A stretch of DNA of 19,224 nt from Alphaproteobacteria bacterium (GTDB taxonomy: Bacteria; Pseudomonadota; Alphaproteobacteria; RF32; CAG-239): assembly GCA_017650255.1 (NCBI GenBank), contig JAGCFG010000126.1, positions 1 through 19,224 on the forward strand, written 5' to 3'. A model generated the notes under the pieces. That model was not told the origin of the DNA and ran no database searches. It saw only the letters and a list, made by a program, of their open reading frames with translations. Of the stretch, positions 11,699-17,363 are shown piece after piece (the first letter of the stretch is position 1; each line of letters begins with the position of its first letter). The translations under genes and the position numbers were made by a program.

Positions 11699-12418
11699 TT
11701 ACAGTTTAAGTTCCGGAAGTTCTTTTTGCAAATATTCCTTTTCTGCTGTGGTAAGCGGCCGAACAGATTGGTATCCGTTGATAATTTCTTGTTTATGCGG
11801 TGTATTTCGAATGAAACGGGCGATTTCGCAGGCAAAAGGCCAGTAGCGCCAGCGATCAAAGTCAATCAAAAATATTTTGTCTTCTGTCTGCATAAAATTG
11901 GTCAAGTTCAGGTCATAATGGCAAATACCTTTTGGCAGATTGCGGAAATTGGATTCTGAAAGAAATTTTGTATATATTCGTAAATTGCTTTTGAGCTTAT
12001 CTGCTATGGAAAGTATTTTGTATTTTAAGGGGTATTCGGGGGTAAATTTTTTGCTGCTGATAATGTGAAAATTTGCTACGGTCTTGCCAATTTTGTAAGC
12101 TGTTTTTTCATCTAAAATATTAATCTTTGTTCCATTGATAAAGCTATGCTTAGCAGCAAGTTTTTTCTTATCCATTTCAAAGATATCTTCAACATTTGCA
12201 ACGTTAAGTCCTTCGTCAAACAGAAATTTTTGAAAATAATTTGATTTTAAAAAGCGAAATTGGCGTGATATAGATGTTTTTTTATTTATTATGATTACAA
12301 ATTTTTTTGATTTGTTTTCGAGAATATAAACATCTTTGCTATTCTTAACTATCGGAGGGTAAATTTTTATGTCTTTGCCGTATTTTTTACGTAACAAATC
12401 ATTTGTAATTTTAGTCAT
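11699..12418 (-). CDS. Phosphotransferase (APH/choline-kinase-like) family protein
   Basis: A 239-residue kinase-like protein. The catalytic loop HYDLNLTN at residues 167–174 matches the HxDxxxxN Brenner motif of aminoglycoside phosphotransferase/choline kinase-type enzymes. LIDFDRWRYWP (184–194) supplies the DFG-equivalent metal-binding Asp186, followed by the ACEIARFIR helix typical of APH proteins. The N-lobe is less conserved; the Lys in KKFVIIINK is a possible ATP contact. The product is Lys-rich and the DNA visibly more A+T-rich than neighbouring lpxB, which could reflect transfer. The start is the ATG at 12418, with AAAGGATG about nine bases upstream; a further upstream start would read through that ribosome site. 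The substrate is unknown: a sugar, lipid A/LPS core component or amino-alcohol are all possible. It follows a structured RNA region. Confidence 0.7.
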   Translation of the reverse strand: MTKITNDLLRKKYGKDIKIYPPIVKNSKDVYILENKSKKFVIIINKKTSISRQFRFLKSNYFQKFLFDEGLNVANVEDIFEMDKKKLAAKHSFINGTKINILDEKTAYKIGKTVANFHIISSKKFTPEYPLKYKILSIADKLKSNLRIYTKFLSESNFRNLPKGICHYDLNLTNFMQTEDKIFLIDFDRWRYWPFACEIARFIRNTPHKQEIINGYQSVRPLTTAEKEYLQKELPELKL

Positions 12419-12441
12419 TATGTAACATCCTTTTTTAGCCA

Positions 12442-12468
12442 GAACAAAACCCACCGAAAGGGGGGCGG
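12442..12468 (-). terminator. Terminator-like hairpin before the kinase-like gene
   Basis: On the – strand CCGCC (12468–12464) pairs with GGTGG (12455–12451) and is followed by GTTTTGTT. The stem is short and contains one G·U pair, so it may be a conditional rather than a strong terminator. The kinase-like gene begins about 24 bases further on. Confidence 0.45.
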
Positions 12469-12645
12469 ATGTTCGAAAACCGTACTAAAATACAAAAAAC
12501 GGCTCGGCTTATTCAGCCATACAGCCTTATTCACCGACATCCGTCCAAGACAGAAGTCGGTATATAATTTGTTAGTCGCCATTACCTATGCGACTGTATT
12601 TTAGTAAAGGGTTTTCGACGCCCTGGGTATGTTTTAATACCCAGA
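12442..12645 (-). ncRNA. Structured RNA: unrecognised ncRNA or cis-regulatory leader
   Basis: Non-coding stretch between lpxB and the kinase-like gene, read on the – strand. It opens with the hairpin CTGGGTAT/ATACCCAG (12623–12644). A long closing stem follows: CGAAAACC (12474–12481) pairs with 12610–12617, and TACTAAAATACA (12483–12494) pairs perfectly with 12595–12606, with a small bulge between. Inside are three hairpins: GTCGC/GCGAC (12575–12594), ACCGAC/GTCGGT (12533–12561) and a nested GGCT/AGCC pair (12501–12526). A terminator-like CCGCC/GGTGG stem with TTTTGTT follows at 12442–12468. A TATAAT box lies at 12652–12657, about seven bases before the first hairpin. I checked it by eye against RNase P, tmRNA, 6S, SRP and T-box signatures and found none. 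Stand-alone RNA and regulatory leader are both open. Confidence 0.65.
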
Positions 12646-12651
12646 GTAATT

Positions 12652-12677
12652 ATTATAGATGGTTATGAAATTTGCAA
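12652..12677 (-). promoter_or_regulatory. Promoter candidate for the structured RNA
   Basis: Perfect TATAAT at 12657–12652 on the – strand, seven bases before the 5' hairpin of the RNA. The upstream TTGCAA (12677–12672) is only 14 bases away, so the −35 element is weak or displaced. It begins just after the lpxB stop codon. Confidence 0.5.
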
Positions 12678-15866: not shown

Positions 15867-16262
15867 TTAGATGTTGATTTTGTTATAGCATATCAAAGAC
15901 TGTGTTATCCACGAGATGTTCAGCAAAGTTAAAAATATGTACATTGCCGTAAAACCCGCAGGAGGAAGAGATGCAAAGCGGAACAATAGCATTCCGAGAA
16001 TGTTGCCTGCCAGTGTTGAAATTAGCAATATTATATATGATACTTTTGTCGGTTTTTTTAATGTTTTATCGGCAAAATATTTCATATAATTCAAAACACC
16101 GAGAATAAGCATGGTTGCGGTGATAAGCAGCGCTGACATAACCACGCAAACAGGTGCGGTTGCTTGATTGTTGATGATCAACATAATCAGTGCCGCAAGG
16201 CACGACAGGGCAGGTGTGGCCATAAAAAAGATGGCTTCAAAAAAATTGGCTGATGATTTCAT
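15867..16262 (-). CDS. Small four-helix membrane protein, paralogue A
   Basis: A 131-residue protein of unknown function with four predicted membrane helices and a short basic loop (ADKTLKKPTK) between helices 2 and 3. Helix 4 and its lead-in (LPPAGFTAMYIFLTLLNIS) closely match paralogue B (LPKPFFTGMYAFLTLLNIS). I place the start at the ATG at 16262, because the 41 bases before it align with the leaders of B and C, whose starts lie at the equivalent place. The longer reading from an ATG at 16295 would translate that leader; it does have a weak GGA upstream, so it is not fully excluded. The gene has its own hairpin terminators on both sides, so it is probably a single-gene unit. No known domain is recognised. 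Confidence 0.65.
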   Translation of the reverse strand: MKSSANFFEAIFFMATPALSCLAALIMLIINNQATAPVCVVMSALLITATMLILGVLNYMKYFADKTLKKPTKVSYIILLISTLAGNILGMLLFRFASLPPAGFTAMYIFLTLLNISWITQSLICYNKINI

Positions 16263-16330
16263 AACAAAAAAATTGGTGACAATAATAAAATTCATGTTTC
16301 CATTTTCTATGATATTCTATTGTTGGTCAA
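16263..16330 (-). promoter_or_regulatory. Promoter and conserved leader of paralogue A
   Basis: TTGACC (16330–16325) and TAGAAA (16309–16304) are 15 bases apart. A 41-base leader follows that contains ATTATT, then CACCAA and a T-run, matching the leaders of paralogues B and C. No Shine-Dalgarno motif precedes the ATG. This copy is the most diverged of the three promoters. Confidence 0.5.
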
Positions 16331-16370
16331 CAGGAAACAAGAATTTAGGAGCAATCTTTTGTTAAAAACA

Positions 16371-16401
16371 AAAAATCCTCCGAGGGCGGAGGATTTTTTT
16401 T
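16371..16401 (-). terminator. Terminator between paralogues B and A
   Basis: TCCTCCG/CGGAGGA stem with an AGGG loop, flanked by A-run and T-run on opposite sides, so bidirectional in form. It lies just past the paralogue B stop. Confidence 0.9.
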
Positions 16402-16411
16402 GAGATTTTTG

Positions 16412-16795
16412 TTACAGTTCGTGCATAAATGCACCGGATACCACAAAAAGCGATATGTTGAGCAGGGTTAAAAATGCGTACATTCCTGTAAAAAAGGGCT
16501 TTGGAAGTGTGGTGAGCTCCAAAAAAAGAAGCCCGCCGATGTTGAATACCAAAACTATCATTGCCAGCATTGTAAAAGCCAGCTTGAAGTTTTTTTCTCT
16601 GGTTTTTTGTGCATCGGCAAGAAAGCCCATAATTACAGGGGCAAGAGTTACGGTAATGGCGATTACAGAGGACAGTGAGCAAAGCGGCTCGTCTACCACA
16701 TTGTCAAGCCACAAGGTGACAAAAGTTGCACCATAAAAGGCAATTGGGATGAGCATACACCACAATGTTGCAAAAAATACTGTTTTAATCTTCAT
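16412..16795 (-). CDS. Small four-helix membrane protein, paralogue B
   Basis: A 127-residue protein of unknown function with helices at about 7–30, 38–59, 71–93 and 99–123 and a charged loop (ADAQKTREKNFK) at 60–71. Its first half aligns with paralogue C: TLWLDNVVDEPLCSLSSVI against TLWIGTEINKPLSSITSAI. Its last helix aligns with A (see 15867–16262). The ATG at 16795 is preceded by a conserved leader without a Shine-Dalgarno motif and by a near-consensus promoter. It stands between two strong terminators, so it is likely transcribed alone. No catalytic or ligand-binding motif is visible; roles in membrane integrity, or as a holin- or transporter-like protein, would be guesses. Confidence 0.75.
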   Translation of the reverse strand: MKIKTVFFATLWCMLIPIAFYGATFVTLWLDNVVDEPLCSLSSVIAITVTLAPVIMGFLADAQKTREKNFKLAFTMLAMIVLVFNIGGLLFLELTTLPKPFFTGMYAFLTLLNISLFVVSGAFMHEL

Positions 16796-16867
16796 AATTG
16801 ATAAAAATTTAGTTAATAATAAAAAATGTTCCGGTTTGTTTATATTAGGTTATAATTTTTTTGTCAA
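16796..16867 (-). promoter_or_regulatory. Promoter and conserved leader of paralogue B
   Basis: TTGACA (16867–16862), 17-base spacer, TATAAA (16844–16839), then a 43-base leader to the ATG. The leader shares its length and most bases with that of paralogue C (AACC, ACATTTTTT, ATTATT, AAATTTTT). No AGGAGG-like motif is present, in contrast to most other genes in the window. Confidence 0.85.
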
Positions 16868-16868
16868 T

Positions 16869-16900
16869 AAAAAATCCCCCGAAAAGCGGGGGAGTTTTTT
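16869..16900 (-). terminator. Terminator between paralogues C and B
   Basis: TCCCCCG/CGGGGGA stem with a five-base loop, between A-run and T-run. It follows the paralogue C stop by a few bases and abuts the promoter of paralogue B. Confidence 0.92.
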
Positions 16901-16904
16901 GTTT

Positions 16905-17291
16905 TTATCGAAATCTGCTGTAATATGCAGCAGATATGAGCAGTATTGCACCGTCCAGCAGGGAGATAACTCCGTAGATGATGATAAGTACCGGTCGGGA
17001 AACCACCGTGTACTCCATCATAATTAACCCAAGAATGCTTGCCAGTAGCGCGACTGCTGTCATGGGGATGAGCAGTTTTTTTGCCTTTTTCCTGAGTGGG
17101 GTGAAGGCCGGAACAATAACCTCCAATACTAGGAGGGTTAAGGTTGCTGCGATTGAGATGGCTGAAGTAATCGAGCTCAAAGGCTTGTTGATTTCAGTGC
17201 CAATCCACAAAGTGCAACACACTGCCACACATGCAATTGTCGCAATAGCGGCGAAAAACAGGCATAACCTGAAAAATTTATGTGAACGCAT
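16905..17291 (-). CDS. Small four-helix membrane protein, paralogue C
   Basis: A 128-residue protein with membrane helices at about 9–30, 39–62, 73–93 and 99–123, a basic loop (LRKKAKK) between helices 2 and 3, and a short basic tail. It shares the TLW–PLSS–TSAIS–TL block and the ME(Y/L)T..(S/P)(R/K)P lead into helix 4 with paralogue B. The start is the ATG at 17291. A longer frame from a TTG at 17363 exists, but that TTG is itself the −35 box of a TTGACA/TATAAA promoter, so the extra 24 residues would be untranscribed. Function unknown. It is the first of the three units after aspS, with its own promoter and terminator, and I recognise no named family. Confidence 0.75.
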   Translation of the reverse strand: MRSHKFFRLCLFFAAIATIACVAVCCTLWIGTEINKPLSSITSAISIAATLTLLVLEVIVPAFTPLRKKAKKLLIPMTAVALLASILGLIMMEYTVVSRPVLIIIYGVISLLDGAILLISAAYYSRFR

Positions 17292-17363
17292 ATACACAAA
17301 AATTTGGTGAATAATAAAAAAATGTCTTGGTTCGTTTATAACAGATTGTAATGTTTTTGTCAA
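17292..17363 (-). promoter_or_regulatory. Promoter and conserved leader of paralogue C
   Basis: TTGACA (17363–17358), 17-base spacer, TATAAA (17340–17335), then a 43-base leader to the ATG. A second TTGACA lies 14 bases further upstream (17377–17372), at the place equivalent to the −35 of paralogue B relative to the terminator. No ribosome-binding motif is visible. Confidence 0.88.

Follow-up and report, generated by a model that had tools for sequence, protein, structure and literature searches.

The closest described relatives of the element reported here are the C4 and sRNA-Xcc1 RNAs. C4 is an antisense RNA that is described in one report (PMC5320573) as released by RNase P in phage P1; the same report describes multi-copy C4-like sRNAs in Acinetobacter baumannii (Group 1), apparently processed likewise. 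According to a second source (PMC12197685), C4 RNA of P1 base-pairs with its target in the region surrounding the ribosome-binding site and so prevents translation. For sRNA-Xcc1, a 2025 report (PMC12444791) places the RNA upstream of symE, and integron cassettes are a known source of it. In the annotated P1 record, the order of elements is promoter, a1, b1, C4, a2, b2 and icd. The P1 C4 fold consists of a closing stem and two hairpins; the second loop holds the strand complementary to b2 and is followed by the strand complementary to a1 and a2. Of P1 b1, 7 of the 8 bases fit. Translational and terminator riboswitches are also relevant, since in them a strand that can mask the Shine-Dalgarno sequence has a second possible partner, and a terminator is present as well. 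Here we describe an element that is probably a C4-type antisense leader of a kinase gene with two competing folds, found in a stretch of 19,224 nt of DNA (hereafter the window).

The initial annotation had pointed to a strongly structured RNA at 12442-12646 on the minus strand, and this was borne out. The minus strand from 12660 to 12442 has a predicted energy of -85.8 kcal/mol, compared to a mean of -51.4 (sd 4.2) for dinucleotide shuffles (z -8.2), and none of 200 shuffles was as stable. The large closing stem, with 12 perfect pairs (TACTAAAATACA/TGTATTTTAGTA) and 8 further pairs (CGAAAACC/GGTTTTCG), could be identified as described, as could the three inner hairpins, the additional 5' hairpin, the upstream TATAAT and the downstream terminator-like hairpin (Table 1). 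The plus strand of the same stretch folds almost equally well (z -7.1), such that folding by itself does not fix the strand of the element; the minus strand is assigned because of the terminator, the Shine-Dalgarno sequence, the downstream ORF and the relatives. The unit is longer than had been noted, since it reaches as far as the Shine-Dalgarno region and start codon belonging to the kinase gene. Moreover, the relatives keep two alternative pairing sets, of which the large closing stem represents just one.

Two possibilities had been proposed for the element, a new ncRNA or a ligand-sensing leader. The best reading is a 5' leader belonging to the APH-family kinase gene, and not an ncRNA of lpxB. 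A leader is supported over a free ncRNA, because an ORF (60 aa or longer) starts 35-130 nt 3' of S2 in 148 of the 164 copies with enough sequence, whereas random places gave 130 of 492; when applied upstream on the opposite strand, the same test gave 32 (of at most 164). For ligand sensing, no evidence was found. RNase P, tmRNA and 6S had been excluded by eye and indeed none of them matches, so a free-standing ncRNA of these kinds was rejected; the 6S model (RF00013) has no match in the window, nor, with a threshold of E 0.001, in the genome from which the window comes.

Table 1. Parts of the leader and the gene behind it, listed 5' to 3' along the transcript (window coordinates)
Feature	Position	Strand	Basis
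TATAAT, probable -10 box	12652..12657	-	sequence; 27 nt 5' of conserved RNA start
Hairpin P0, sequence variable between copies	12623..12646	-	fold; by eye in relatives
Small stem AGGG/CCCT, loop carries a1	12608..12624	-	a':a1 complementarity
a1 (GTCGAAAACC), partner of a'	12610-12619	-	a':a1 complementarity
b1, variable, pairs with b' to give helix P2, the 12-pair stem of the initial annotation	12594..12606	-	b':b1 permutations
Hairpin P3 (AGTCG...CGACT)	12574..12595	-	98.0% of cells paired in alignment A1
Hairpin P4, S1 inside its 3' strand	12533..12561	-	fold
S1 (GGACGGATGT), 5' strand of C4-like closing stem, partner of S2	12537..12546	-	S1:S2 permutations
C4/sRNA-Xcc1-like core: S1, H1, H2, a', S2	12463..12546	-	RF02221 match
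Hairpin H2 (GCCGT...ACGGT), b' in loop	12479..12503	-	stem variation in relatives
b' strand in H2 loop	12483-12494	-	b':b1 complementarity
a' (GGTTTTCGAAC), partner of a1	12471..12481	-	permutations; a' position in P1 C4 RNA
S2 (AACATCC), pairs with S1 or with Shine-Dalgarno strand S3	12467..12473	-	permutations, run counts
Intrinsic-terminator-like hairpin (12449-12470) and T-run	12446..12470	-	5' arm overlaps the predicted S1:S2 helix in most copies
S3 (GGATGTT), kinase Shine-Dalgarno region	12424..12430	-	perfect complement of S2
APH-family kinase-like gene, 239 aa, ATG at 12418	11699..12418	-	PF01636, E 9.1e-8

Over the element, matches to Rfam families all stay below the respective gathering scores, and to this extent it had been correctly called unrecognised. 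However, two models align to it in the same register, and the layout is that of C4. The sRNA-Xcc1 model (RF02221) covers 12455-12546 with 30.1 bits (E 0.0014; gathering score 53), and the C4 model (RF01695) gives 21.2 bits (E 0.071; gathering score 45). The c4-a1b1 model (RF03163; gathering score 46.7) has no match to the element at E up to 5. In a set of 18 genomes, comprising 17 from the same family as the window and G054 from another, RF02221 matched all except G088 at E 0.1; the matches listed range from 26.7 to 40.5 bits, and in none of the genomes is the cut-off of 53 passed. All 27 RF02221 matches listed for G136 fall on copies found with our own model R1 (below), while in other genomes some lie outside the R1 matches listed. 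RF01695 matched in 3 of the 18 genomes, in no case over its cut-off. Higher scores were seen at related loci: the R1-type locus L298, from another family, has 51.7 bits with RF02221 (cut-off 53), and L297 has a c4-a1b1 match of 29.5 bits (E 0.00044; cut-off 46.7).

A DNA search of 57 genomes, including the window's own, gave matches in 24 at E ≤0.1, some of the weakest of which are short and may be due to chance. An alignment of 25 copies (A1) served to build the covariance model R1, with a structure that includes a1:a' and b1:b' and excludes S1:S2 and S2:S3. In A1, 91.9% of cells are paired, 16 pairs have both sides changed and the covariation score is 0.247, compared to 0.122 in shuffles, with 0 of 500 shuffles as high in each case; further pair types, one of five covariation measures, were not above shuffles (208 of 500 as high). 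All six pairs of helix 3 in this alignment, which corresponds to the b1:b' pairing, carry two-sided changes. Helix 5 (P4) has 93.3% of its cells paired and two-sided changes in no pair. The alignment therefore supports a conserved structured RNA with covariation. Covariation in homologues had been set beforehand as the test that could refute the initial annotation, and its presence leaves that annotation unrefuted.

The variation between copies extends to individual parts. The small stem bearing a1 can be GAGG/CCTC, GAGC/GCTC or GGAA/TTCC (by eye), and the outer pairs of H2, where the whole stem could be read, include AGCC/GGTT, ACTA/TAGT, ACTG/CAGT, GCTA/TAGT and AGCT/AGCT, many other entries in this list being stem fragments. 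Hairpin H1 of the core carries AATAAG...AATAAG. A candidate pseudoknot between the P3 loop and P4 (GCATA/TATGC) was seen by eye. In some copies a 5' GGGCG could be paired by eye with the terminator arm as an antiterminator; this was inconsistent across subfamilies and was dropped.

R1 matches (E 0.01) were found in 142 of the 152 genomes of the window's family, in a survey that scored up to 18 candidates per genome. Copy numbers come from deeper scoring of 22 chosen genomes, which gave 68 matches in G136, 58 in G028 and 43 in G005, and a single match in each of G002 and G061. The window's own genome, which is 79% complete, holds one copy. In a sample of the class, 25 of 385 genomes had a match at E 0.001, and 20 of these are outside the family. 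A strict core pattern was found in at least 102 stretches of named records; most of the 80 listed are MAGs titled as Alphaproteobacteria or proteobacterium, with gut and rumen samples as frequent sources, and one is Azospirillum sp. CAG:239. Viral contigs gave 0 matches to this same pattern, which fits the canonical subfamily only, and within that scope a phage-borne element was rejected.

For the pairing tests, 106 matches (A2) were reduced to 100 copies by dropping two opposite-strand echoes of known copies, one match truncated where its contig ends, and three second sites with weak scores (E 0.00098 to 0.009), of which one stands in tandem. The Shine-Dalgarno tests used 94 copies, the other 6 having no assigned start. 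Among loci held out from other families, L289 was left out as a duplicate of L017, and 23 of the 25 copies had an assigned start and entered the Shine-Dalgarno tests. At two loci (L132 and L162) two leader copies stand in tandem, ~240 and 306 nt apart, and L171 may hold a weaker second site ~300 nt off. The leaders at L256 and L257 are near-identical by eye and come from two genera (G008 and G131); this could reflect either recent transfer or contamination.

In most copies, S2 is complementary to both S1 and S3. In the window, GGATGTT of the kinase Shine-Dalgarno region is the exact complement of AACATCC of S2, and S1, S2 and S3 change together across subfamilies: CGGATGT/ACATCCG/GGATGTT, GGAAG/CTTCC/GGAAGTT, AGAGG/CCTCT/AGAGGTT and GGGTGGATG/CATCCACCC/GGGTGGAT. 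When S2 was permuted among the copies, the S1:S2 score of 2140 (100 copies; permuted mean 1598, sd 36) and the S2:S3 score of 1536 (94 copies; 1175, sd 36) were each reached in 0 of 500 permutations. The same was true of non-canonical copies only (53 for S1:S2 and 50 for S2:S3; 0/500 for both) and of the held-out copies of other families, where S1:S2 scored 591 vs 403 (25 copies, 0/500) and S2:S3, more weakly, 327 vs 284 (23 copies, 0/500). Runs of at least 7 pairs are found for S1:S2 in 97 of 100 copies, and between S2 and the Shine-Dalgarno region in 64 of 94, leaving 30 without. With background genes, canonical S2 forms such a run in only 3 of 493, a figure lowered by some wrong starts, since background starts were taken as the first ATG after a stop.

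Inside single genomes the S2:S3 signal mostly vanishes: 114, 191 and 240 of 300 permutations were as high in G136, G028 and G005, respectively. The only low genome was G116 (7/300), and a mixed canonical set gave 11/300. Because S2 and S3 are near-constant in one genome, little or no within-genome signal is expected; the S2:S3 signal is thus mostly between lineages, and reflects fewer events than copies.

The complementarity of a' with a1 and of b' with b1 was reached in 0 of 300 permutations each, and that of a':a1 in the held-out loci in 0 of 500. Within one set or genome, the a/b pairs gave 0/300 in the canonical set, G136, G028 and G116, and 2/300 in five G005 copies. The strands a1:a' and b1:b' are therefore private to each copy, being variable yet complementary within a genome. 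Because these pairings are built into R1, copies having them are easier to find, which favours the tests. Compared with the region before the start codon, mostly in the window's family, a' and b' show no match above permutations (143/300 and 54/300 as high). In the held-out families a' has some match there (1/500), while b' has none (493/500); the residual a' match in these families may represent an intermediate state.

Other features of the copies were compared with shuffled sequences. Promoter-like pairs with a score of 8 or more out of 12, mostly 24-29 nt 5' of the model start, occur in 78 of 100 copies vs 223 of 500 shuffles, and at a looser threshold in 86 of 100 vs 338 of 500. Folded alone, 90 of the 100 cores give a closing helix with two or more hairpins, compared to 44 of 500 shuffled cores, a comparison in which the closing helix is favoured because the cores were trimmed at the best S2 complement, and in which the choice of S1 by complementarity was not repeated in the shuffles. 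The predicted S1:S2 helix overlaps the 5' arm of the terminator in 98 of 100 copies if 1 nt is taken as the minimum, and in 67 of 100 if 3 nt are required.

A switch with two competing folds can be proposed on this basis. Comparison of the copies shows the pairings and their joint changes; we infer promoter use, termination, the assignment of ON and OFF, a possible release by RNase P and any action in trans. A transcript from the leader's own promoter would carry P0, the private strands a1 and b1 and then the C4/sRNA-Xcc1-like core. In the OFF fold, a1:a' and b1:b' would be paired, with S1 held in P4 and S2 free; the terminator could form, and S2 would cover the Shine-Dalgarno sequence of transcripts that read through. 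In the ON fold, S1:S2 would close the core with H1 and H2, invade the terminator arm and leave the Shine-Dalgarno sequence free. The core could possibly be freed by RNase P, by analogy with C4. The predicted energy prefers the a1:a'/b1:b' fold by 15.6 kcal/mol on average, and by 26.5 in the window, so the core-closed fold would probably depend on a partner, on a protein or on loss of the 5' part.

A further reading, which we regard as improbable, is that the leader is a privately addressed, self-reinforcing switch in which the ON core freed by RNase P turns new transcripts of the same gene ON. The freed a' and b' would capture a1 and b1 of these transcripts, which then could not adopt the OFF fold. 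If this were true, pili, adhesins and envelope enzymes could have many independent heritable on/off states without DNA rearrangement, through dozens of differing a/b pairs and one common anti-Shine-Dalgarno strand.

The genes behind the leaders were surveyed with Pfam in 109 downstream proteins, including the window's kinase, chosen from 150 ORFs with near-duplicates removed by eye; in these tallies one protein may match several families, and the sample is weighted to genomes with many copies. The commonest were BspA-type repeats (12), bundlin pilins (10), PilS pilins (9) and outer-membrane barrels (7), followed by glycosyltransferases, APH kinases (PF01636) and OmpA-like domains (5 each), opacity porins (4), and the EcoRI-type methylase (PF13651) and autotransporter families (2 each). 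Many other downstream proteins start like lipoproteins, by eye. In G028, the next ORF of 14 of the 20 fetched copies (L219-L238) has the type IV pilin-like GRSMIEMLGVL or a close variant in its first 50 residues; these pilin-like genes are apparently one large paralogue family taking the leaders along. The leaders at L010 and L146 stand before genes for EcoRI-type adenine methylase-like proteins, assigned by eye, which alongside helix-turn-helix regulators form a non-envelope theme. Elsewhere in the window, at 15867-17363, three tandem ORFs of 127-152 aa appear by eye to be small membrane-protein paralogues, and the hairpins between them have weak matches to leader-peptide models.

Of the alternatives to a C4-type leader, the one that survives best, though in our judgement still unlikely, is a riboswitch of a new class, in which the conserved junction and the AATAAG/AATA internal loop would bind a metabolite or second messenger and so choose between S1:S2 and S2:S3. 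A platform of terminator and Shine-Dalgarno sequence is present, there are invariant unpaired nucleotides, and the wide range of surface genes downstream resembles the broad gene sets of some second-messenger riboswitches. However, no shared metabolic theme was seen among the downstream genes, the conserved core aligns with the models of sRNA-Xcc1 and of C4, an antisense RNA, and the a and b strands are copy-specific, which to our knowledge is not a usual riboswitch feature.

There is only a slim chance that the element is mainly a trans-acting sRNA, whose terminated or RNase P-cut core would repress other genes, with the neighbour as one target. Such a role would be in line with C4 and the A. 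baumannii C4-like RNAs, which are described as processed from longer transcripts (PMC5320573), and cross-talk would be possible, since S2 is near-identical across the copies of a genome. Against this, a matching Shine-Dalgarno sequence is frequent in the adjacent gene and rare in others, as the run counts above indicate, and closure of the core would conceal S2. A mobile repeat, MITE-like or a recombination site, whose inverted repeats mimic RNA structure, could account for the long inverted repeat and the many matches per genome (as in G136), but is rejected as the main reading because the complementary strands a1 and b1 differ between copies of one genome and the orientation is biased to ORFs; the match of S2 to the Shine-Dalgarno sequence and the result from viral contigs with one strict core pattern also speak against it, and we consider it very improbable. 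An integron attC site was also weighed, in view of the integron cassettes that carry sRNA-Xcc1; it seems unlikely, as the copies lie on many different contigs, contain promoter-like and terminator-like sequences and precede genes.

Returning to the C4-type leader, the likeness to C4 of P1 and P7 extends over the promoter, a1, b1, a core with closing stem and two hairpins, and a regulated gene in the same direction. As in C4, b' lies in the loop of the second hairpin and a' before the closing 3' strand, while a1 and b1 lie upstream in the same predicted transcript and are complementary to a' and b'. The a' and b' strands of P1 have further matches in a2 and b2, which precede icd, whereas those of the leader do not match the region before the start codon; instead, S2, the 3' strand of the closing stem, matches the Shine-Dalgarno sequence. 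Unlike C4, the leader's core is followed by a terminator-like hairpin, and the element is chromosomal, present in up to dozens of copies and below the cut-off of the C4 model.

By score, the closest known system is sRNA-Xcc1. We examined 30 fetched loci over its cut-off (L259-L288), of which the 26 with an assigned start were retained, a few of these starts appearing too far downstream. Here it is b' and a' that match the downstream gene at its Shine-Dalgarno region (0/300 permutations each), while S2 (128/300) and the 5' half (63/300) do not; a' also matches within 150 bases upstream (0/300), and b' less so (8/300). Thus a' and b' match the Shine-Dalgarno region in sRNA-Xcc1, whereas S2 does so in the window's family, where, as judged from these matches, the Shine-Dalgarno-matching role has moved to S2. 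The b' and a' matches suggest that the neighbouring gene is the target of sRNA-Xcc1, and the adjacent gene is where such a target could be sought.

Among the other known systems, the A. baumannii Group 1 RNAs resemble the leaders in that many C4-like RNAs occur per bacterial genome. They differ in that they are described as processed sRNAs whose proposed targets lie elsewhere, whereas the leaders here are matched to their own Shine-Dalgarno sequence. As in riboswitches, S2 would have an alternative partner, the complementary S1, and a terminator-like hairpin is nearby, but the recognition strands of the leader are private to each copy. Literature searches brought up papers on C4 and sRNA-Xcc1, and among the top 3 to 18 of up to 5,554 papers per search none was on leaders that occur dozens of times before surface genes, with private a/b strands and a closing strand matched to the Shine-Dalgarno sequence. 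We conclude from these sequence comparisons that the leaders derive from RNAs of the C4/sRNA-Xcc1 type or are close imitations of them, which ties antisense-type RNAs of phages and integrons to a large leader family of surface genes in uncultured gut Alphaproteobacteria, with a proposed mechanism that can be tested by a plain reporter. If the private a/b pairing works in trans, it would constitute an RNA-only route to variable surface expression. We rate multi-copy C4-like sRNAs as known, and a Shine-Dalgarno-matched leader family before surface genes as apparently new.
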